From positions 186,001 through 250,000 of the forward strand of contig NZ_VAWF01000001.1 in the NCBI RefSeq assembly GCF_005869845.1: a stretch of DNA of 64,000 nucleotides, written 5' to 3'. Positions 1,023 through 13,285 of this stretch are shown here, one piece after another. Origin of the DNA: Fodinibius saliphilus (GTDB lineage Bacteria > Bacteroidota > Rhodothermia > Balneolales > Balneolaceae). The first letter of the stretch is position 1, and each line of letters opens with the position of its first letter. The translations under genes and the position numbers were made by a program. The notes beneath the pieces were generated by a model. The model saw only the letters and a program-made list of their open reading frames with translations. It was not told the origin of the DNA and did not search any database.

Positions 1023-1793
1023 TTAAAACCACATACGCAGACCGCCTAGCAGGCTTAGGCTGCTAGGGTCGTTGTACATATCGGCTGTTTTTCCGAACTT
1101 ACGTTCCCAATTGACGCCGATATATGGAGCAAATTCCCGTTCTATCTCATATCGTAATCGAAAGCCTAACTCAATATCATTAATGCCAGAGCCAATGCCA
1201 TATTCTGGGACATCCTGGAAGGCTACGGATGTTTCAATGAGCGGTTGCCCGATGAGTCGTTGAGTGATTGGCAGATCGTACTCGGCTTCAAAGGAAGCAG
1301 AGATATCACCTTTCTCGCTAATAAACAGCCCCCCGTCTACCTCAAAAAAGTATGGTGCCATGCCTTGAAAACCAATAACGGCAAAACCGCGCGACAGGTT
1401 TTCATTGCCTTCATAGATTAGGTCATATCGTATGCCTGCCTGCAGATCAAAGTAGCGCGATATTGCCCTGCTGTACAGTCCCTGGAATTCTAGTTCGGTT
1501 TCATCGTGGGTAGTAACGATTTCTCCGTCAGATTTAAACCAAAACTTATGTAGATCTTTACCTATATAGCCTTGAACTTCCCACATAACGGGGTTAGGGC
1601 CCGGCATACTTTGGTATTCAAGTTTATCAGCTATGATATAAGTATACGTTTTGTTATCCATCAGCAGATCATTGCTGAATTCCGGGGCCTTTTGGGCTAC
1701 AGCTGTATTATTGCTCATAAACAATATCATTAGAAATACAGCAGAAAGAAATTTACTTAGTTGTCGCATTATAGTAACTCTTCTCGGTTTCAT
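1023..1793 (-). CDS. copB: Copper resistance protein B (CopB/PcoB), outer-membrane beta-barrel
   Basis: 256 residues with a signal peptide ending near NNTAVAQ. After it comes a CopB-family barrel: repeated amphipathic strands, the sequence LEFQGLYSRAISRYFDLQAG, and a final strand ending in Phe (GGLRMWF), as expected for an outer-membrane protein. The long His/Met-rich N-terminal stretch found in Pseudomonas CopB is absent, so this is a short version of the family. An in-frame ATG at 1769 (MRQLSKFLSAVF) gives a tidier signal peptide and may be the real start. CopB works with CopA in periplasmic and outer-membrane copper sequestration. The gene follows copA after 33 bases and is almost certainly co-transcribed with it. 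Confidence 0.9.
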   Translation of the reverse strand: MKPRRVTIMRQLSKFLSAVFLMILFMSNNTAVAQKAPEFSNDLLMDNKTYTYIIADKLEYQSMPGPNPVMWEVQGYIGKDLHKFWFKSDGEIVTTHDETELEFQGLYSRAISRYFDLQAGIRYDLIYEGNENLSRGFAVIGFQGMAPYFFEVDGGLFISEKGDISASFEAEYDLPITQRLIGQPLIETSVAFQDVPEYGIGSGINDIELGFRLRYEIEREFAPYIGVNWERKFGKTADMYNDPSSLSLLGGLRMWF

Positions 1794-1826
1794 AATTGGG
1801 TTAAAAACTATTGCTGACTGCCAGTA

Positions 1827-3605
1827 TTAGTAGATACTTCCATTTTCGTCGCTTACTTGAACAACACGGAACATTCCCATCTCCATGTGATAGAGAATAT
1901 GGCAGTGGAATGCCCATCTTCCTTTATCACGGGGAGTAATTAGGGCCGATATTCGCTGAGCAGGTTGTACCAGCAGGGTATGTTTTCGGGGATTGTATTG
2001 TCCGTTGCCGTTTTCCAGCTCCATCCACATACCGTGTAGATGAATAGGATGTTCCATCATAGTGTCGTTAACAAGAGTAAGTCGCAGCCGCTCGTTATGT
2101 TTGAAATCGATGGGCCCTTCAACCTCATGAAACTGTTTGCCGTCAAACGACCACATATAACGTTCCATATTTCCGGTCAGATGTAACTCTACTTCTCGTT
2201 CAGCATCACGTTCATCAATATTGGGATTCAGGCTTTTTAGGTCGTTATAGACCAGTACATCCCTTCCGTCATTACCAAGACCAATGCCGGGCTCATGGAG
2301 TCTATCGAATTGGTTTTGAGCAATAGCAGCGGCGCCAATACCGTGTCCATCGGGACCGTGTTTGACTGGTGGTTTCGGATTATCCATCTTCATTTTCATT
2401 GCACCACCGTCCATATTCATATGGTTATGGCCGCTATCCATCTTCATATCCATGTCGCCCATATCCATGTCCATACCCATATCTTTCATACTGCGTGTAG
2501 GGCGGGGACGTAGCTCAGGAACAGGAGCTTCCATGCCTTCTTTGGGTGCAAGTGTTCCACGGGCATAACCGCTGCGGTCGAGCGATTCCGCAAAAATGGT
2601 ATATGCTTGATTGTCATCGGGTTCAACAATAACATCATAGGTTTCTGCAATACCGATGCGAAATTCATCAATAGGGACCGGCTTTATGTTTTGTCCGTCG
2701 GCTTGTACCACAGTCATTTTGACTCCTGGAATACGAACATCAAAGATGGAGCCGGCCGAGGCGTTGATAAACCGAAGCCGCACTTTTTCTCCTTTTTTGA
2801 ACAGGGCATTCCAGTTTGATTGCGGTCCGCGGCCGTTCAACAGGTAGGTATACATAGCGCCGGTCGTATCCGCAAGGTCGGTAGCGCTCATGCCCATTTT
2901 CCCAAATGAAAGATAATCTTTTAGAGCATTTCCCATTCCTTTTTTCTTGGCATCTTTAAAAAACTCGCCAAGCGTTCGTTTTTGATAATTATAATACCCT
3001 TCAGATTTCTTAAGATTTGCCAGTACTCTGTAAGGGTTTTCAAAGGTCCAGTCAGAGAGTACAATCGGATAATCGCGATCATATTCAACAGGATCTTCAC
3101 CAGCAGGATCAATAATAAGTGGCCCGTAATGCCCCAGCTGTTCTTGAAGTCCTGAGTGACTGTGATACCAATACGTACCATTCTGTTTTACTGGGTAGCG
3201 GTACTCAAAAGTTGAATCGGGTGCAATACCATCGAAACTTACTCCGGGTACGCCATCCATCTGGAAGGGTAGGATAATACCATGCCAGTGTATCGATGTC
3301 TCTTCATCGAGTTCATTTTTCACTCGTAACAATACATCTTCCCCTTCTTTTAGACGAATGATAGGACCGGGTACGGTACCGTTGATGCCAATAGCTTCCC
3401 CTTCTTTTCCATCGATAACCTTCGACATTTTACCAATAGTTAGGTCAACTACGTTATCGGGACCTTGGGGAGTGAGAATATCTCTGTCCTCAAGGTTTGC
3501 AAAAGCATAAGTGGGTAATACAGTGCTAAGACCAGCCATTGCCGCCATCGAAGCAGTATAGCGTAGAAAAGTGCGTCGACTAATAGTATTTGAATCGTCG
3601 TTCAT
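1827..3605 (-). CDS. copA: Copper resistance multicopper oxidase CopA/PcoA, Tat-exported
   Basis: 592 residues. The N-terminus carries a twin-arginine signal (ISRRTFLR, residues 8-15) followed by a hydrophobic stretch, so the protein is exported folded with copper loaded. All multicopper-oxidase ligand motifs are visible: HWHG near 106, HSHSG near 148, HPIHLHG in the last domain and the HCHxxxHxxxM block near the C-terminus. Between the second and third cupredoxin domains, at about 365-415, lies a Met/Asp/His-rich segment (MGMDMDMGDMDMKMD) of the kind thought to bind Cu(I) in CopA/CueO proteins. The family oxidises Cu(I) and binds excess copper in the periplasm. It is first in the copA-copB-DUF2231 operon and divergent from copRS, its likely regulators. 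Confidence 0.95.
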   Translation of the reverse strand: MNDDSNTISRRTFLRYTASMAAMAGLSTVLPTYAFANLEDRDILTPQGPDNVVDLTIGKMSKVIDGKEGEAIGINGTVPGPIIRLKEGEDVLLRVKNELDEETSIHWHGIILPFQMDGVPGVSFDGIAPDSTFEYRYPVKQNGTYWYHSHSGLQEQLGHYGPLIIDPAGEDPVEYDRDYPIVLSDWTFENPYRVLANLKKSEGYYNYQKRTLGEFFKDAKKKGMGNALKDYLSFGKMGMSATDLADTTGAMYTYLLNGRGPQSNWNALFKKGEKVRLRFINASAGSIFDVRIPGVKMTVVQADGQNIKPVPIDEFRIGIAETYDVIVEPDDNQAYTIFAESLDRSGYARGTLAPKEGMEAPVPELRPRPTRSMKDMGMDMDMGDMDMKMDSGHNHMNMDGGAMKMKMDNPKPPVKHGPDGHGIGAAAIAQNQFDRLHEPGIGLGNDGRDVLVYNDLKSLNPNIDERDAEREVELHLTGNMERYMWSFDGKQFHEVEGPIDFKHNERLRLTLVNDTMMEHPIHLHGMWMELENGNGQYNPRKHTLLVQPAQRISALITPRDKGRWAFHCHILYHMEMGMFRVVQVSDENGSIY

Positions 3606-3768
3606 GACAATTTCTTTTTTAAATTACTCAGTGTAATGATACGAATAGTTATAACTAATATATTACAAGTTGTAAAAGAGAAGTCCGTGCCTACGGTTCT
3701 CAAAAGTAGTGAGCTAAATCAGTTTTGCATGCATAAATTTGTGAATCAATCATAACATATGAAATGAA

Positions 3769-3786
3769 CCTTAAAGCTAGCTTAAA
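3769..3786 (+). promoter_or_regulatory. Candidate CopR operator, copy 1
   Basis: CCTTAAAGCTAGCTTAAA. The half-site CTTAAA occurs twice in the same orientation, 11 bases apart, which is the helical-turn spacing typical of OmpR/PhoB-family sites. It lies 164 bases upstream of copA. It shares the longer pattern CCTTAAAG-NN-AGCTTAAATAT with the copy upstream of the Met-rich gene at 13355. Binding by CopR is inferred from position and form. Confidence 0.6.
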
Positions 3787-3841
3787 TATGCAGCTCTGAA
3801 TATAATTTAATATTTAAATAGTTTTTTAAGGTAAAGATAAA

Positions 3842-3859
3842 CCTTAAATGAAGCTTAAA
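3842..3859 (+). promoter_or_regulatory. Candidate CopR operator, copy 2
   Basis: CCTTAAATGAAGCTTAAA, the same 18-base pattern as copy 1 with only the three-base spacer and the following A/G differing. It ends 63 bases before the copR ATG, a position suited to autoregulation of copRS. Its left half also forms one arm of the inverted repeat at 3826-3847. Confidence 0.6.
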
Positions 3860-3922
3860 ACATCTTTGGAAATTGTCTCTTATTTTAGTGAAGAAGTAAA
3901 AAGATACTCATAGCCTATTTGC

Positions 3923-4645
3923 ATGTGGATTTTATTAGTTGAAGATGAAAAACAGTTAGCTAACTCTGTAAAAAGAGGTCTTGAGGAAGAGGGGCATGTG
4001 GTGGAAGTGATGCACGACGGGGAGGAGGCTGAACTGCAGGGCATGGTCAATAATTATGATGTCGTTATTCTGGACTGGCGTCTTCCCAACCGTGATGGTA
4101 AACAGATATTGAAGCATTGGCGTAAAGAAGAACGAAACTTTCCGGTTCTTATGTTGACGGCTCTTGGTGATTTGGATTATAAAGTTATGGGGCTGGATGC
4201 AGGTGCGGACGATTATATGAGCAAACCCTTTTCATTTGAGGAGTTATTAGCACGGATTAGGGCTTTGGGAAGACGGTCTGGGGATCTAAATGTCACAGGA
4301 AAGGTTACAGCGGGCCCCATTGAACTAGATTCTCGTAAACACTGGGTTAAGGTATGTGGTATTAAACGGTCGCTGCGACCCAAAGAGTTTATATTATTAG
4401 AACTATTACTTAAAGATCCAGAAACAGTATTTTCAAAAACACAACTTGCCGAGCGTGTTTGGGGATCTCCATATTATGTTAGTGATAATACGATCGAAGC
4501 AACGGTTTCTACTTTACGACAGAAATTATCGGAGTCTCTTAAGGAGTGTGAAGAGATCTCCTTTGAACAAGTTCCAAAAGTCATTGAGACAATTCGGGGA
4601 GCTGGCTACCGGTTGAATAGTGATATCATTAATATCAAAGAATGA
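3923..4645 (+). CDS. copR: OmpR/PhoB-family response regulator, CopR/CusR-like
   Basis: 240 residues. The receiver domain (1-115) has the acidic pocket EDE at 7-9, phospho-acceptor Asp51 (ILDWRLP), Thr79 (MLTA) and Lys101 (SKPF). The winged-helix DNA-binding domain (about 130-232) includes the recognition-helix region (SDNTIEATVSTLRQKL) and the C-terminal hairpin GAGYRL. The start ATG is the first in the frame after the divergent promoter region. Its position next to copA and ahead of a membrane sensor kinase suggests it switches on the copper operon. Copper as the signal is inferred from context only. Its likely DNA target is the direct-repeat motif at 3769, 3842 and 13355. Confidence 0.9.
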   Translation: MWILLVEDEKQLANSVKRGLEEEGHVVEVMHDGEEAELQGMVNNYDVVILDWRLPNRDGKQILKHWRKEERNFPVLMLTALGDLDYKVMGLDAGADDYMSKPFSFEELLARIRALGRRSGDLNVTGKVTAGPIELDSRKHWVKVCGIKRSLRPKEFILLELLLKDPETVFSKTQLAERVWGSPYYVSDNTIEATVSTLRQKLSESLKECEEISFEQVPKVIETIRGAGYRLNSDIINIKE

Positions 4646-6077
4646 GATCGTGGGAAAAGTATCCTCTTTTTTAAATCGTCTTTCAATATCCAAAAGGCTG
4701 GCTTTCTGGTATGGAGCGAGTCTTTTTGTAATGCTCAGCGTATTCGGCTATTTCTTATATGATTCATTTCATGATTCCATACACCATAACTACGATCGGC
4801 ACCTTCGCTTTGAGGCCGAACAGTTGCTTCCGTTTATAGAAACCGGAGATACCCTTTCGATGGATATAACAGGTTATAGCAGAAATGAGGCCTTAAAAAG
4901 TGGTATTGAGTATGGAACCTATGTACGCTTGTATGATGAAAGTGGTGAGTTAATATATCGCAGCCCTAACTTTTCTAAGATCAACGAGCCGCTAAAAACT
5001 TCGATTCCGAAGATAGCTGGAGAGCATTCGGTTAGTACTGAATGGCAGTCTATGCCAGCCCGAACACTATTTTATCCTATAGAAAACGACAATGGTACAT
5101 TTTGTGGTTGGCTGGAAGTTACGGGATTTGAATGGACCCTTCATGAAGAGCTCAGCAGGTTTAGGAAGTACTTATTCGTTTTGATAGCACTAAGTGTGAT
5201 ATTTTCGATTATTGGTGGCTATTTGCTTTCCCGTCGTGCTTTATCTCCGGTTAGCTCTATTATCAACACGGCGAAGTCTATTACTGCAACAGATTTGGAT
5301 AAGCGTATACCTGTGAACTACCAGGTGAAAGATGAGCTCACGGACCTTGCTGATACATTTAACATTATGCTGGATCGCCTACAGAAGGGGTTTGAACGCG
5401 AGAAACGATTTACTGCGGATGCAGCCCATGAACTTATGACTCCACTTTCATCTATCCGCAGTGACGCTGAAATTATGTTAAGGAAATCCCGATCACAACA
5501 AGAGTATGAACAGACGTTAGAGCGGGTCTTGGATGAGGTGAAACGAATGAGTGGGATGGTTGATCTGCTGTTACAGCTTTCAAGAATAGATTCGGAACAA
5601 CATGTTGAAGATGGAGCGGTGAATGTAAGTCGTATTGCGGAGGGCGCAGTCCAAGCCTATCAATCCCATGCCGATGGAATGGATATCACATTGGAAACAC
5701 AGATTGATCCAGGCTTAATTGTAAATGCTCATGGAGGTTATATTGAGAAAGTAATTCATAATCTATTAGAAAATGCGTTAAAATATACCCCAGAGGGTGG
5801 AACCATAAATATGCAGGTAAAACGATCAGGTGGTGAAGCAGTGATTCGTATAAAAGATACGGGAATCGGTTTTGATGAAGATACTAAACAACATCTTTTT
5901 GAACGTTTTTATCGTGCAAATGAAGCAGCAGTTCAAGAGCAGAAGGGTAGTGGGTTGGGTCTTTCCCTTTGCAAAGCAATTGTAGAGCTATATGGAGGAG
6001 AAATTAGTGCCTATAGCAAGGGCATAGAGAAGGGAAGTGCATTTGTAGTTAAATTGCCGCTTTCGGAGACAAATTAA
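4620..6077 (+). CDS. copS: Membrane sensor histidine kinase, CopS/CusS-like
   Basis: 485 residues from a GTG at 4620 that overlaps copR by 26 bases. Another GTG at 4650, five bases past the copR stop, would also fit, because the conserved part begins near LSISKRLAFWYG. Order: first membrane helix about 28-47, periplasmic sensor loop about 48-183, second helix about 184-203, HAMP about 204-258, HisKA with phospho-accepting His270 (AAHELMTPLSSIR), then a HATPase_c domain with N box (HNLLENALKYTP), DTGIGF and GSGLGL. It should phosphorylate CopR in response to a periplasmic signal, presumably copper. The last 150 bases of the gene recur in decayed form at 10908. Confidence 0.9.
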   Translation: MISLISKNEIVGKVSSFLNRLSISKRLAFWYGASLFVMLSVFGYFLYDSFHDSIHHNYDRHLRFEAEQLLPFIETGDTLSMDITGYSRNEALKSGIEYGTYVRLYDESGELIYRSPNFSKINEPLKTSIPKIAGEHSVSTEWQSMPARTLFYPIENDNGTFCGWLEVTGFEWTLHEELSRFRKYLFVLIALSVIFSIIGGYLLSRRALSPVSSIINTAKSITATDLDKRIPVNYQVKDELTDLADTFNIMLDRLQKGFEREKRFTADAAHELMTPLSSIRSDAEIMLRKSRSQQEYEQTLERVLDEVKRMSGMVDLLLQLSRIDSEQHVEDGAVNVSRIAEGAVQAYQSHADGMDITLETQIDPGLIVNAHGGYIEKVIHNLLENALKYTPEGGTINMQVKRSGGEAVIRIKDTGIGFDEDTKQHLFERFYRANEAAVQEQKGSGLGLSLCKAIVELYGGEISAYSKGIEKGSAFVVKLPLSETN

Positions 6078-6093: not shown

Positions 6094-6650
6094 GCTGCCG
6101 GAGATACAAAATTATGATGAAAAGAAGTCAATTAGAGTCAGGTTTAAGGTGCTCTTGAAGCGAATAGCGAGCCTATTCAACGAATAAGAACTCAAAGCCT
6201 GGTTCAAGGCTTTTTTTGCAGTAGATTAAGTTGATGCTGTCCTTAAAAATCCTAGTAATACAGAATGGTTGTCCAATTACTATTCGACCTTCCCACAAAG
6301 GGTTTCCTTTGGCTTTGTAGTTCCTTTTTTGAACGGCTCATTGCCCATATCTGAAGGATTAAAGTTGGTGCCTAAAGGTTAGAGCACAACATTCTCGGTA
6401 AAAGTTTCATTGCTATAGTTTTCGTGTCTAATATTTTATCCATGGACTTATCGGCATTAATAAGCAGCTTTATAATTATCCCTTGGCGATGAAATGTCTG
6501 CTGAAAAGGTTAATGAAGTATGCTAATTGATATGATCATTAATCGCCATTTCATTATCAATTTCTATACCCCTACAACTTGCCAAGAATAGTATTGATAA
6601 TATTTTAAATAAGGTGAGTTGCAAATTTATTAAATTTCAGCTTACAGGAA
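6078..6650. other. Intergenic stretch after copS, with a short coding-like frame
   Basis: 573 bases between copS and the convergent mscS-type gene. A terminator-like hairpin sits at 6194-6217. A plus-strand frame open from 6230 to the stop at 6380-6382 reads like protein (for example STFPQRVSFGFVVPFLNGSL) but has no ATG, and I do not recognise it. It may be a remnant of a lost gene. I see nothing in 6383-6650. Confidence 0.4.
6194..6217 (+). terminator. Rho-independent terminator of copRS
   Basis: AAAGCC-TGGTTCAA-GGCTTT followed by a run of T (to 6217), about 120 bases after the copS stop. It has a six-pair stem and a T tract on the plus strand. Confidence 0.6.
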
Positions 6651-7673
6651 TTACGATTTATCAATGTGTTTTTGATTGGGAATCATATCGTGTTTTTTTA
6701 GTTCACTTAAAATCAATTCTGTCATATCACTTTTAAAAGGGAATTCGTACCTAATATCAAGAACATAGGCTTTTACCCGAAGTTTAAGCACGAAATTTTG
6801 CTCGTGTACTTCATTCAATGCAATAATTGCTATAGGCTTTTGTAAATAGACATAACGTGATGAAACAGCAGCTCGGTAAGCAATTCGTTTGGCCTCATCT
6901 ACATCTACATCCATTGGAAGAAAAATTTCTGCCACCACCTGACAGTCTAAAGCACTGGAATTTGTATTAGATACGGCCTTGTTCATCAATTCGCTGTTGG
7001 GGATGGTTACTAAGGAATCATCGGGAGTAACAATTCGGCTTGACCGCAATCCAATTGAAACCACTTCACCATAATGTTCCGCGACCTCAATCTTATCTCC
7101 AACCTGAAATGGCCGATCCATTATGATAATAAATCCGCCAAAAATATTTTTTAGGATATCCTGTGCAGCAAATCCGACGGCTATACCCACCGAGGCTAAC
7201 ACCGTGATAATAGTACTCATAGGAGGATTAATGATACCAGCAATGATGACATAAATCGAAAACGTCCAAATAACAAGGCGTACAACTGGTACCATCCGCT
7301 TGATTCCCAGCCGATAACTGGTGAACCGTTCTGACAGGTTTTCGAGCACTACCACAATAAATCGGTTAAGAAAGTAGGTAAGTATTAAGGCAATGATAAT
7401 TGCCAGTACAACGCCAACAGAAATAAGATTTTCAATCTCTGATAGGGATTGACTGGTACCTTGATCAACAGGAGCTAAATTAGCAGTCGTATCGATGCGG
7501 GCGGTGTCAATATTTACAGTATCCGCCTGGATTATATCAATCTGACTAGAGCCAATTATAACGGTTGTGTCGGTCTGCTGTGATACGGTGTCTTGTAGGG
7601 CAGAAAGAGCCTCGCTATGAGATCCCAAAAGGAAAGTGATCGCAAGCAGTAATAGTTTGATTAATTTGTGCAT
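6651..7673 (-). CDS. MscS-family mechanosensitive ion channel
   Basis: 340 residues. A cleavable-looking signal peptide (1-22) is followed by a Thr/Asp-rich periplasmic linker to about 75. Three membrane helices come next: about 83-105, 128-149 and the pore-lining helix about 154-186 (VGIAVGFAAQDILKNIFGGF). The MscS beta domain follows, with the family motif FQVGDKIEVAEHYGEVVSIG, then the alpha/beta C-terminal domain. Channels of this family open on membrane tension and release solutes. Here the gene begins 7 bases after the end of the large ATPase at 7681 and must be read from the same transcript. That is an unusual partnership, and it suggests the ATPase gates or regulates the channel (inference). 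Confidence 0.9.
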   Translation of the reverse strand: MHKLIKLLLLAITFLLGSHSEALSALQDTVSQQTDTTVIIGSSQIDIIQADTVNIDTARIDTTANLAPVDQGTSQSLSEIENLISVGVVLAIIIALILTYFLNRFIVVVLENLSERFTSYRLGIKRMVPVVRLVIWTFSIYVIIAGIINPPMSTIITVLASVGIAVGFAAQDILKNIFGGFIIIMDRPFQVGDKIEVAEHYGEVVSIGLRSSRIVTPDDSLVTIPNSELMNKAVSNTNSSALDCQVVAEIFLPMDVDVDEAKRIAYRAAVSSRYVYLQKPIAIIALNEVHEQNFVLKLRVKAYVLDIRYEFPFKSDMTELILSELKKHDMIPNQKHIDKS

Positions 7674-7680
7674 CCAGTTA

Positions 7681-10623
7681 TTACCCCAAGTGAATTATGT
7701 TGCGTTCTTTAAGCACTCGAATTATCTGTCGGTACATTAAGTGATTAATAGTGAAGGACCCATTTTTTTCGATCAACATGCCCCGTGACCTCAACCGATT
7801 TAGCAATAACCTGCTTTCTTCGAGTTTTACATTGAGTACCATGGCTAACTCGCTGTCAGATAACGTATCGTGTAGTACAAACGCTGCCAATGCAAATAAT
7901 ACCTGAGGATTTAGATCCTCAATCATCTCTACTGATGTTACCTCAAGCGGCTGTATATAAAAATAATTCTCGTCAAATTCCCGAATCGAACGAATCCAAA
8001 ATATCATTGCAATTGAGGGATTCCCCTCAGCCAATCTTGTCAGTTTTTCAAAATATTCCTCCTTCAAATGCTCTTGGACCTCATGTTCTTGTCCCTTGAT
8101 TTTACGATAGGTACGCGACTGCATTATTTGATCGTCCGGCTCAAAGTGTAGCGAATAACCGCTGGCCTGATGCCTGCTTAAAATGATCTGTTCAATCTGC
8201 TCTTCATTTAGAGAATCACTTTTACTGATATGAGAAAAGTATTCGCTGATCTGTAAAATCTTATCCAAAAACGACCAGGCGTACCTGGAACAACTAACCA
8301 TCCAGAAAATATTTTCTCTGGTTTCTGAAATTAAGTACGCTAACTTCTCGATAGCTTTAAAGCCATTAATATCACGGATAAAGCAATTTTGTATGGATTC
8401 AATAACAACCACTTTCCGGTTATCTGATTCTTTAATCGTTGCCACCAGCTCTTCGATTGTTTGCGGGGATTCAACCTTTAGCACTGCTGCTATCTTACTT
8501 AATAGCTGATCTTCTTCCCAAATAGTTTTTACAAACTCAACGGTTTCAACCTGCTCTTCACCGAGTTCTGAATCAACTACTAAACTCAAAAATGATGATT
8601 TGCCACTTCCCTTTTCACCAACCACGGAAAAATTCGTGGGGAACTGATTTTTCCATTGTTCATACGATCTTCTAAAAGTCATGGTTGATTCTTGTGCAGG
8701 CTTAAAAAATTGCTTGTCCGCAAGTGATTTAAAATCAAAAAGTCGCCGATATATATAAGGCAACTCCTTCATTTTACTATCGGTTTCAGAAAGATATGTA
8801 GCTATATCTGCACGCTTAGATGCCTGAATTGTTGACGTTTTAAATCCTAACGCAACTTTTATATCAGCACCATACTTTTTCGCTTTTTTCCAAATAAAAC
8901 GGCTCCATAGCATCAGCTGATCTTGTATGCTTGCCCAGCGTGAATCCAGAACGGCATGCCAGTCATTGGTTTTTTCTTTTACCGCATATTTGGCGTTTAG
9001 TCGTTGCAGTTGCTTAGAATCTCCCTCGTGAAGCAGAGCTAATAAAGAAGAGAAGAACTTTTCACTTCCCTTATCAATTGCATTATTAATCTGTTCCCAT
9101 TTTTTCCCCGCCTGCTCATTGAGTTCCAGAACCTTCGATAGAATACGCTGTAATGCTTCACGCACCACTTTTGTAGGATCCTCTTTTTCAGCTACCTCTT
9201 CATCGCGAGCTTCAAGTGCCGATTCAAAGTTGACTGAGATTATTTTCTTTATCTCAATAATCTCGCTCAAATTTTGAGATAGAAATTCTTCCTGCTGCTG
9301 ATTGGACGGTTGTAAGGGCTTCATAAATAACTCCCTGAGAGCCCGAACAACCAATTGGCGCCATTCTACTTCTTCCTGATTTACAGTCGGGGGATTTTTA
9401 TCAAGCTGGGTCCCGAAAACGAGTTGTACTTCCTGTGGAGATTGCCCCACCTTTAGTAGTAGATCCTCAAACAGGTGCTCTGTTTTATCTTCCAAAATTT
9501 GTTTATCCAGCAGCTTCTGTATGGGCTGTATTAGTCGCTCTTCCACAAAACCAGCAAGGTTTTCATGCAAAGTTTTCAATTCATCCAGCGTAGCTCTCTG
9601 GCCAATCTTCTCGATAGAAATTTCAAGATCTGTTAAGAATTCCTGTAGCGGTTTTTTTAGTGATTGTTGGAATATATCCTCAAATGATACCTTGAACTCT
9701 TCAATCTCCTTTTCAATTTCAGAACGCAGTTTTAAAAATTGTACCACATCCTTAGTCCGTTCAAAAAAGAGCCGTTGTACAAACTGCCATTGCTCCTTTT
9801 GGCTCTTAAAACGGTTACGTATATATTCCTCTTTAACTTGAAGCCTGTTATCATCAAAAAATTTACTACGCCATTCCAGTGTTCCCACCTTCTCAACATC
9901 TCGAACTATTTGAGTATGCTTGCTGCTGATTACTTGCTTTACCTTTTTCAGCAGGTCCTTTTTTTCCTCTTCCAGTCTGTTCTTTTGATCTGATACAAAA
10001 GTAGGGATATCAAACTCTTTCTGCACTTCTCGCTCTTGAACCAACAGTTCCTCAATATCCCTAATCAGATTTAGCTGTATGCGCTGAAGTGTATGTCCCC
10101 ATTCCAATACTGATTCATTATCCAACAAAGGATAGCTCACCACTTTATTTAAAGGGATCTCTTGCTCCCATTTGGGATATGCTTTTTTGTTACCTCCGAA
10201 AATATTTTTTTGTGATTGAACGGCCCTAAAACCAAGCTTAGCAACACTTCGGAAAGTGCTTTTGCTTCTTTTTCCTATTGCTACCCAAACAGAATCTTGC
10301 TGTTGGACTATGAACCGTTCTTCATTTTGTTTCCAAACTTCTTTATTGGGAAACGTTTTACTAATTTTATTAACAGCTGATAGATATGTCCCTAATAGAT
10401 TCTCACTTTCTTTATCTGTTATCGTACCTTCAATATTATTTAAAATCTGCGGGAGTCCCTGTGTTATAATATTTTCGGGCTCATATTTTTTTTCAATTGC
10501 CAAAAAGTATCTCAGAAGTTGCTCAAAGCTATTAAAGCGTGCTTCGATATGCTGGATTAGATCATCCTGCAGGTTACCCTCAATTTTTTTCTGTAGCTTA
10601 TCTTTAAATTCTTGACGATCCAA
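7681..10623 (-). CDS. Large coiled-coil protein with C-terminal P-loop ATPase and winged-helix-like end
   Basis: 980 residues; no named family recognised. Residues about 1-640 are mostly charged alpha-helix with long coiled-coil stretches (about 185-390 and 470-560) and no membrane helix or signal peptide. A P-loop domain follows: Walker A GEKGSGKSS at 669-677, then a Walker B-like strand VVVIES at 738-743 in which Glu replaces the usual Asp pair. A STAND/AAA-like helical part comes next, and the last 90 residues resemble a winged helix (DTLSDSELAMVLNVKLEESR). The start is TTG; upstream in frame there is only an ATT and then a stop, no ATG. It is the first gene of a two-gene unit with the MscS channel. 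A regulatory or sensing NTPase acting on the channel is a reasonable guess, not a demonstrated role. Confidence 0.7.
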   Translation of the reverse strand: MDRQEFKDKLQKKIEGNLQDDLIQHIEARFNSFEQLLRYFLAIEKKYEPENIITQGLPQILNNIEGTITDKESENLLGTYLSAVNKISKTFPNKEVWKQNEERFIVQQQDSVWVAIGKRSKSTFRSVAKLGFRAVQSQKNIFGGNKKAYPKWEQEIPLNKVVSYPLLDNESVLEWGHTLQRIQLNLIRDIEELLVQEREVQKEFDIPTFVSDQKNRLEEEKKDLLKKVKQVISSKHTQIVRDVEKVGTLEWRSKFFDDNRLQVKEEYIRNRFKSQKEQWQFVQRLFFERTKDVVQFLKLRSEIEKEIEEFKVSFEDIFQQSLKKPLQEFLTDLEISIEKIGQRATLDELKTLHENLAGFVEERLIQPIQKLLDKQILEDKTEHLFEDLLLKVGQSPQEVQLVFGTQLDKNPPTVNQEEVEWRQLVVRALRELFMKPLQPSNQQQEEFLSQNLSEIIEIKKIISVNFESALEARDEEVAEKEDPTKVVREALQRILSKVLELNEQAGKKWEQINNAIDKGSEKFFSSLLALLHEGDSKQLQRLNAKYAVKEKTNDWHAVLDSRWASIQDQLMLWSRFIWKKAKKYGADIKVALGFKTSTIQASKRADIATYLSETDSKMKELPYIYRRLFDFKSLADKQFFKPAQESTMTFRRSYEQWKNQFPTNFSVVGEKGSGKSSFLSLVVDSELGEEQVETVEFVKTIWEEDQLLSKIAAVLKVESPQTIEELVATIKESDNRKVVVIESIQNCFIRDINGFKAIEKLAYLISETRENIFWMVSCSRYAWSFLDKILQISEYFSHISKSDSLNEEQIEQIILSRHQASGYSLHFEPDDQIMQSRTYRKIKGQEHEVQEHLKEEYFEKLTRLAEGNPSIAMIFWIRSIREFDENYFYIQPLEVTSVEMIEDLNPQVLFALAAFVLHDTLSDSELAMVLNVKLEESRLLLNRLRSRGMLIEKNGSFTINHLMYRQIIRVLKERNIIHLG

Positions 10624-10907
10624 TAGAATTACTTTCGTTAATTTTATTTTCTATAATTTGATCAAAATATGATGAAATACAAATTTTACGTACCGTTACT
10701 TACTGCGGATCATGGTAGTAATCCCTTTTTTTCTTGAATAAAGATTAGGCAATTCCGATCAATGTACTCTTCAGTACAATAATGAAACCTGGGCATGATT
10801 GATCCCATTTAACATATTTGCATTTTCCTTTAAAATGCGGTCGTTTTTGATCATTGTTGGTAATCTGTTTCTTTTTAGTAGCAGTTTTTCTCATCCCAAC
10901 ACAATTT
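10624..10907. other. Upstream region of the ATPase-MscS unit
   Basis: 284 bases between the ATPase start and the copS relic. They must hold the leftward promoter of the two-gene unit. I see no clear operator and no copy of the CopR-type motif, so the pair is probably not under copper control. Confidence 0.4.
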
Positions 10908-11753: not shown

Positions 11754-12674
11754 CTACTTTGTCATTAATTCATCTGGACTCCAAGGATGACTGCGGTTTG
11801 AATATTTTTTGTCAATAGTTAGAACATCTTGCTGTGTAATTTTTGAAAGATTATCGTCACTTTTTTTACGTAAAAAATTGAGGATAGCGGCAATTTCGGC
11901 CCCGCTAAGCCGTGCTTTAAAAGAGGGCATAACTCCGTCGTAGTGTTTGCCTTGTACTTCAACCTCTCCCCGTACTCCATGTAATACGATACGAATAGGG
12001 ATTGATTTTTCTGCTGTTATCCACTTGGAATTGATTACCGGAGGGTAAACCTTTTCGATGCCCTGACCGTTTTCTCCATGGCAAGAAGCACAATCGCGCA
12101 CATAAAAGCGGTTACCGTTAAGCTTGGATGGTTTGCTCTGGGCACTGAATGGTATATCGGTAGGTTGGTTTAGTCCCGGTACCATATCTTGCATGCGTTT
12201 GAAATGATCTGCCATTTTTTTATTCATCAGTGCCAACTCTTCCTGTCCATATTGTTGATGCAATTTCTGCATTTGGCTGTACATATCCCTCATCTGCTGA
12301 TACCATTCTCCAGCCCTGTGATTTTCCATATGCATGCGCATATGGCCCATCTGCATTTTTTGATCGTGTATTTTTCTTTGCTGGTGGGTAGCCATCATAC
12401 GTTGGTGGTTGGTCCCCATCCGGCGATGCATTTTCTGAGTCTGAAGTGATAAGTGACGGATATTAGGAGGCAGGGTATCGTTGTGGGCAGCATATTTATC
12501 CATCAACTGTTGGTGTTGGGCAGATATGGTTTCAAAGATATCAGTTAATTGTTTCTGCTCATCCTTGCTCATCTGGTTTGTTGTGTCCGAACCACAGGAT
12601 GAAAGTAATAAAACCATTATCATGAAAAAGGGCAGTGTGTATAATGTTGAACGCTTAGTTATAGGTAAATTCAT
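11754..12674 (-). CDS. Cytochrome c lipoprotein with Met/His-rich N-terminal domain
   Basis: Start taken at ATG 12672-12674 (MNLPITKRSTLY); a TTG seven codons upstream is less likely. A lipoprotein signal ends in VLLLSSCGS, so the mature protein is probably membrane-anchored on the periplasmic side. The first part (about 25-165) is helical and very rich in Met, His and Gln (HDQKMQMGHMRMHME). The second half is a class I cytochrome c domain with haem motif CASCHGENGQG and a downstream axial Met candidate (GVMPSFKARLSGAEI). The combination suggests a periplasmic electron carrier fused to a copper-binding module, for example for Cu(I)/Cu(II) redox buffering (inference). Its partner gene is the methyltransferase downstream. 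Confidence 0.85.
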   Translation of the reverse strand: MNLPITKRSTLYTLPFFMIMVLLLSSCGSDTTNQMSKDEQKQLTDIFETISAQHQQLMDKYAAHNDTLPPNIRHLSLQTQKMHRRMGTNHQRMMATHQQRKIHDQKMQMGHMRMHMENHRAGEWYQQMRDMYSQMQKLHQQYGQEELALMNKKMADHFKRMQDMVPGLNQPTDIPFSAQSKPSKLNGNRFYVRDCASCHGENGQGIEKVYPPVINSKWITAEKSIPIRIVLHGVRGEVEVQGKHYDGVMPSFKARLSGAEIAAILNFLRKKSDDNLSKITQQDVLTIDKKYSNRSHPWSPDELMTK

Positions 12675-12829
12675 AAAAAATATATATGTGTACAATTACT
12701 GCTTTATATTCTTTTTATTTTCTATGTCACCGTTTGGCAAACTCTTTTGGCATTTCACACTACAACGTTATCTGCCTAATGTCTAACTACGTTATTAAGA
12801 TTGAGGAATCATTCAAAAATAATTGAATT

Positions 12830-13285
12830 TTATTGGCGATTTTTTTTGCCATTCATCATCCCTTTTTGATGCATCATATTTTCTTTCATCATCATCTGTA
12901 TGCACATTTTATGCATGGGCATCATTTCACGCATTTTTTTGTTGCCCATCATATTCTCCATATTGTTGCCTTGCATCATTGATTGCATCATCTGCATGTG
13001 GGTTTCCATGCGTTTTTTCATTTCGGGATTATCCATCATCATCTTTTTCATATTAGCCATACCCATAGTACTGTCCATATTCATCGAACGCATCATATGC
13101 CGCATCATCTGTTGACGCATTTGAGGATGCTGGGCCATATGGGTCATTATCATTGTGCGCATGGTGGAGTCCTCCATCATTTGCATCATCTGCTGTTTCT
13201 TCATCGGCATTTTATCTTGTTGCTGGGCAGTAGTGGTTGCTACCACAAATAGAATAGCGATACATGTGAGGATAAATTGTTTCAT
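12830..13285 (-). CDS. Secreted methionine-rich protein, candidate periplasmic copper binder
   Basis: 151 residues with a clear signal peptide (MKQFILTCIAILFVVATTTA). About 46 of the 151 residues are Met, mostly as MM or MxxM pairs among His, Gln, Asn and Lys, with one Cys near the end. No globular domain is visible. Met-rich clusters of this type bind Cu(I) in CopC, CusF and PcoE-like proteins, which makes copper sequestration the obvious proposal. A copy of the candidate CopR motif lies 70 bases upstream, supporting copper induction. It is not homologous to a named family as far as I can tell, and low complexity would make database matches unreliable. Confidence 0.8.
   Translation of the reverse strand: MKQFILTCIAILFVVATTTAQQQDKMPMKKQQMMQMMEDSTMRTMIMTHMAQHPQMRQQMMRHMMRSMNMDSTMGMANMKKMMMDNPEMKKRMETHMQMMQSMMQGNNMENMMGNKKMREMMPMHKMCIQMMMKENMMHQKGMMNGKKNRQ

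Follow-up and report, generated by a model that had tools for sequence, protein, structure and literature searches.

Known MscS channels are opened by membrane tension and are the textbook passive safety valves of the cell, and we know of no dedicated ATPase for any of their members. Why, then, does a gene for an MscS-type channel lie directly behind that of a large coiled-coil ATPase in the genome of Fodinibius saliphilus (Balneolaceae, Balneolales)? Both genes are on the minus strand of the 64,000-nucleotide stretch that we analyzed (contig NZ_VAWF01000001.1, positions 186,001 to 250,000; hereafter the window). The open reading frame at 7681–10623 encodes a 980-residue P-loop ATPase with a STAND/AAA-like core and a winged helix, and that at 6651–7673 encodes a 340-residue MscS-type channel, identified by its Pfam match, with 7 bases separating the ATPase stop from the MscS ATG. 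A first-pass annotation of the sequence had given the same frames and gap, which the coordinates bear out, and had proposed a candidate undescribed system that resembles stress or anti-phage effector pairs. Here we find that a STAND-like protein dedicated to MscS as its partner, and shared with KCC-type and Na+/H+ transporters, appears to be undescribed, both folds being known, and that the pair probably serves osmotic or ion homeostasis.

The two-gene unit is real and widely conserved. We counted linkage over 92 loci carrying the ATPase core and found a same-strand MscS-domain gene directly adjacent in 85; five others end with their contig before the expected MscS place, and in the remaining two (L104 and L158) the neighbor is a divergent MscS-like protein (hhalign probability 96%). 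Chance adjacency was rejected, since the exceptions are explained and the F. saliphilus genome holds only six MscS-domain genes, yet MscS is the neighbor at 85 of 92 loci. In a lineage of class-mates the order is swapped, MscS first and ATPase second (14 loci, counting L067, where a long open frame hides the order), indicating that the link has survived rearrangement. Phyla beyond that of the window were sampled through plasmid records only; queries with the ATPase alone retrieved four such records, two from Novosphingobium, one from Caulobacter, and one from the haloarchaeon Salinirubellus, and MscS adjoins in all four. The ATPase is present, mostly in single copy, in 47 of 92 genomes of the family (40 of the 66 of high quality), and a profile search of 395 genomes sampled from across the phylum found it in 73. 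Purifying selection acts on both window genes: compared with L001, the closest named relative (76% identity; an uncultured Aliifodinibius metagenome-assembled genome, Balneolaceae), the ratio of nonsynonymous to synonymous substitution rates is ~0.11 for the ATPase and ~0.10 for MscS. The proposal of an undescribed system thus gains ground, as homologs of the ATPase keep the channel next to them on the same strand rather than occurring mostly without it. Open-access papers yielded nothing on a dedicated ATPase-MscS pair, and an eLife paper on NTPases in conflict (PMC7159879) leaves MscS unmentioned.

The channel itself is a clear member of its family (PF00924, E 1.5e-22, 79.9 bits against a cut-off of 20.2), with three predicted transmembrane helices, a beta domain at residues 172–238 (6960–7160), and a pore helix, TM3, at residues 158–180 (7134–7202; VLASVGIAVGFAAQDILKNIFGG) that shows the canonical Gly/Ala pattern. 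Judged by its signature, FA(A/S)QDxL(K/R)NxFGG, and by its place in the tree, the MscS partner is a dedicated subfamily: the partners of the phylum searched cluster apart from the other five paralogs of the F. saliphilus genome, and archaeal and alphaproteobacterial partners fall at the base of the paralog side, in a poorly resolved region. On the Caulobacter plasmid (L121, 5713–10135), the ATPase gene precedes a tandem pair of MscS genes, of which the second groups with ordinary paralogs in the tree.

What the ATPase might act upon is suggested by its relatives, whose contexts, as read from their domains and operons, are mostly those of cation transport. Six loci (L062, L063, L064, L092, L093, and L094) encode an ATPase of ~1500 residues whose N-terminal 500 residues are a Na+/H+-exchanger domain; the Na_H_Exchanger match (PF00999, E ~1e-19) is above cut-off in L062, L092, and L093, and the domain in L063, L064, and L094 was assigned by homology to L062. 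The corresponding operon runs membrane protein, exchanger/ATPase fusion, MscS, TrkH, TrkA, and its flanking genes are kept in six of six cases. At three further loci (L069, L070, and L120) the ATPase reaches ~1700 residues and begins with an SLC12 cation-chloride cotransporter (PF00324, E ~1e-48), which in L069 matches KCC4 in the PDB at E 7e-79; a small, pore-less MscS-like gene adjoins each of these SLC12/KCC-coiled-coil ATPases. Frames of 1500–1700 residues had raised the suspicion of an ATPase-MscS gene fusion, which we rejected: the extra residues are transporter or other transmembrane domains, and MscS is separate. L065 has an adjacent TrkH gene and ~ten N-terminal transmembrane helices on its ATPase, and a separate Na_H_Exchanger gene stands in the ATPase operon of L104, L158, L159, and L160. 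The operon of the last two comprises an AI-2E-family transporter, the ATPase-core protein, a protein of 187–202 residues with 2–3 transmembrane helices, and the Na+/H+ exchanger; the small protein occupies the expected position of MscS and has no detectable similarity to it.

The state of the MscS pore follows these fusions. In every partner MscS we counted small residues (Gly, Ala, or Ser) at seven pore-helix columns. Unfused pairs have 5 or 6 in 75 of 75 cases, with six in the window, and loci with a membrane-domain fusion have 2–4 in 10 of 10 (for example, LSVVTITLIALIAWFWFRDFIAG in L069). Where the ATPase is fused to a membrane domain, the MscS fold is thus retained and its channel sequence has decayed. 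From the fusions and the pore decay, the simplest inference is that an ion conduit is the target of the ATPase and has been exchanged in evolution; likewise, a fold kept without its pore is most simply read as a second role for MscS, in docking or tension sensing, that outlives the pore.

No curated family accounts for the ATPase. Pfam, NCBIfam, and PADLOC returned no family above cut-off, the best Pfam match being AAA_22 (18.6 bits against a cut-off of 27), and the PDB sequence search gave only coiled-coil and P-loop background matches. AAA_16 also matches the window protein below threshold, as do nSTAND1 and nSTAND3 its relatives; among the relatives tested, only those from Alphaproteobacteria pass the cut-off of AAA_22 or AAA_16. 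Because no curated STAND/AAA model exceeds its cut-off, we class the protein as STAND-like and not as a STAND member. Its Walker A, GEKGSGKSS, lies at residues 669–677 (8593–8619; the P-loop GEKGSGKS starts at G669), and GEKGSG is invariant across a 20-sequence Balneolaceae alignment (A1). Walker B is of a Glu type, VVVIES, at residues 738–743 (8395–8412), with E742 as its single acid. Arg817 of an RHxxSGY motif (8173–8175) does not vary in A4, the broad core alignment, and the aligned Gly867-Asn868 of an (A/S)EGN motif (8020–8025) precede the winged helix at the GxP/sensor-like position of STAND proteins. That C-terminal winged helix, predicted at residues ~897–975 (7699–7935), was modeled with a predicted local distance difference test score (pLDDT) of ~75–84 over most of its length and matches MarR/ArsR-type winged helix-turn-helix (wHTH) domains with Z ~10.9; the structure models, made from the window and L001 sequences, are otherwise poor. 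The N-terminal region (residues ~1–600; 8824–10623) is helical or coiled coil in a low-confidence model. The first-pass annotation was therefore right about the Walker A position, the unusual Glu-type Walker B, and the winged-helix-like end, and no known family with an unrelated role emerged; of its long coiled coils, a long helical N-terminal half finds support, but only from low-confidence models.

The features that vary least over the broad family are the glycines of the P-loop, Arg817 (RHxxSG), the (E)GN motif, and the winged helix. The N-terminal coiled-coil half is the least conserved part and is absent from homologs of 440–466 residues (genera g2 and g4) and from an archaeal homolog of 331 residues, which argues that the minimal unit is the ATPase core plus MscS. 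The second Walker B acid (hhhhD[D/E]) is missing in the window's group, so that the two-acid pattern is not found there; remote members (L082, L104, L158, L159, and L160) have DD. The Walker A lysine is replaced (by M, R, N, A, T, and others) in class-mates and in some lineages of the same phylum that keep the MscS pair. Loci with a replaced lysine are L066, L067, L068, L071, L073, L074, L075–L078, L095–L099, and L101; by their motifs, the proteins of these lineages are apparently catalysis-poor nucleotide switches. Given the missing second acid and the replaced lysine, a nucleotide-binding switch is likelier than a motor, and, from the same motifs, turnover of ATP by the ATPase is doubtful. 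The ATPase start is a TTG (10621–10623), and in most genus-mates the first usable start aligns with it; a TTG start at about that position occurs in L001, L003–L006, L008, L009, and L011, and no alternative ATG lies near it in the window or in the genus-mates.

We favor, with fair confidence, osmotic or ion-homeostasis regulation as the class of explanation for the pair, because relatives of the ATPase are fused to, or share operons with, Na+/H+ exchangers, SLC12/KCC transporters, TrkH, and TrkA. Dedicated to a membrane protein of the MscS fold, the ATPase would be a STAND-like nucleotide-binding regulator with a coiled-coil input, a P-loop core, and a winged helix, and the two would act as one unit in an ancient ion/osmotic-homeostasis module. 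In the form found in the window, the regulator would most likely bind its own MscS heptamer on the cytoplasmic face. The coiled-coil region may set the regulator's nucleotide state, whether by ATP hydrolysis or by binding only, from a cue such as the volume, ionic strength, or energy state of the cell, and this state would make MscS an actively regulated osmolyte/ion valve and not a purely tension-gated one. We are less sure of this exact mode, in which a switch on its own heptamer tunes osmolyte/ion release, than of the class of explanation. In relatives where a cation transporter is joined to the regulator, MscS has lost its pore sequence and would stay on as a docking or tension-sensing subunit. 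Only tentatively do we generalize this to a cross-domain STAND-like family that is an exchangeable ion-flux control unit, gating either an intact MscS or a fused transporter accompanied by a pore-less, tension-sensing MscS.

Several points weigh against the osmotic explanation. Within Balneolales, the order of the window, no transporter genes are linked to the pair, so the explanation rests on homologs of ~20–30% identity. The transporter-linked lineages are few, perhaps 2–4 independent events by an estimate that is not tree-based, which makes the correlation between fusion and pore loss a strong hint and not proof. The N-terminal membrane region of L065 matches no transporter family, and the loss of the Walker A lysine in several lineages means that energy use cannot be general. 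The ATPase models, finally, have pLDDT values of only 44 and 40.

Three other accounts of the pair deserve comparison with osmotic regulation. With its STAND-like architecture and adjoining membrane channel, the pair looks like known NTPase-effector pairs, and the below-threshold nSTAND and AAA matches of the relatives fit such a picture, in which the NTPase would sense infection and open MscS as a membrane-permeabilizing effector of anti-phage defense or abortive infection. With E values up to 1 allowed, however, PADLOC matched neither window protein to any family, and among relatives its matches were weak and of P-loop type only. The phage and viral collections searched contain no homolog of the ATPase, whose distant relatives do lie on the four plasmid records; in addition, a mostly single-copy gene in 40 of 66 high-quality family genomes, with relatives fused to cation transporters, is not what this account would suggest. 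Neither are the neighbors of the pair, which belong to copper resistance in the window and are an amidase and a peptidase in Balneolales, none of them defense genes; the Amidase_3/M49 synteny across that order argues for a stable chromosomal site and not the defense island in which such pairs might have been sought. We rejected a defense system for want of PADLOC, phage, or viral-contig support and regard an anti-phage role as very improbable; the first-pass comparison to a stress or anti-phage effector pair fares better in its stress half, which the transporter fusions and operons favor.

The wHTH invites a different reading, since it resembles MarR/ArsR DNA-binding domains and some STAND proteins, MalT for one, act as transcription factors: the pair could be a membrane-tethered or membrane-responsive transcription regulator, with MscS reporting tension and gene expression as the output. 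In STAND/AAA proteins, however, winged helices are also a standard element that does not bind DNA, the core of the fused forms trails a membrane domain with ~10–13 predicted transmembrane helices, and the window MscS retains a full pore helix that a mere sensor would not need; we give this reading a slim chance. Somewhat less improbable, though still unlikely, is a factor for assembly, repair, or placement that folds, inserts, or localizes transporters as well as MscS, or ties these proteins to the cell wall, and does no gating. AAA-like proteins are often chaperones, and Amidase_3 stands beside the pair in 49 searched loci. That link, however, was seen only in the window's order and was lost in the F. 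saliphilus genome itself, where the pair moved without the amidase; fusion to one particular client transporter would be unexpected of such a factor, as would loss of the Walker A lysine in several lineages that keep the pair.

Set beside described systems, the window MscS shares PF00924, three predicted transmembrane helices, and the Gly/Ala pore helix with E. coli MscS, YnaI, and MscM/MscK, but it has a signature of its own and clusters apart from the other MscS proteins of its genome. The ATPase has the P-loop, (E)GN motif, C-terminal winged helix, and single-acid Walker B of STAND switches (MalT and NLR-like), but lacks a second Walker B acid, has lost the lysine in several lineages, and carries coiled-coil or transporter domains in place of repeat sensors. 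K+ transport systems under nucleotide control, TrkH/TrkA among them, likewise dedicate a cytosolic nucleotide-binding protein to an ion conduit, and trk genes share operons with the ATPase in relatives; here, in contrast, the regulator is a STAND-like P-loop protein instead of an RCK ring, and the conduit in the window is MscS. The N-terminal domain of L069, L070, and L120 belongs to the SLC12 family (KCC/NKCC), from which these proteins differ in that their C-terminal cytosolic part runs into the coiled-coil ATPase core and their partner is a pore-less MscS-like protein. If osmotic regulation is correct, many bacteria and some archaea would actively regulate MscS channels via a conserved nucleotide-binding partner, and if the unit is exchangeable, it would constitute a nucleoside triphosphate-regulated mechano-osmotic signaling complex of an undescribed kind. 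The KCC-type and Na+/H+ fusions, with the loss of the MscS pore, would offer a natural comparative series for the coupling of cation transport to membrane tension and nucleotide state, a link long missing from the picture of osmoregulation.

The surroundings of the pair in the window record its history. In Balneolales, Amidase_3 lies upstream of the pair, as noted above, and an M49 peptidase often lies downstream. The window retains only decayed 5' fragments of both, outside the functional unit: one of the M49-peptidase gene, the ancestral downstream neighbor, with stops (6298–6633, minus strand), and one of the Amidase_3 gene, the ancestral divergent upstream neighbor (10809–10904, plus strand). 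Intact amidase and peptidase genes stand side by side elsewhere in the genome (C1:1595052–1598186) without the pair, from which we infer that the segment was relocated along with pieces of both neighbors, or was copied and its original then lost from the old site. Both genes of the pair remain open and constrained between these decayed flanks, which supports one functional unit independent of its old neighbors. Farther out, a very Met-rich protein of 151 residues without a Pfam match is encoded at 12830–13285, and the regions 1023–6077 and 11754–13285 hold genes of copper or metal resistance, namely those for CopB, a multicopper oxidase, a response regulator, a histidine kinase, and a cytochrome c.

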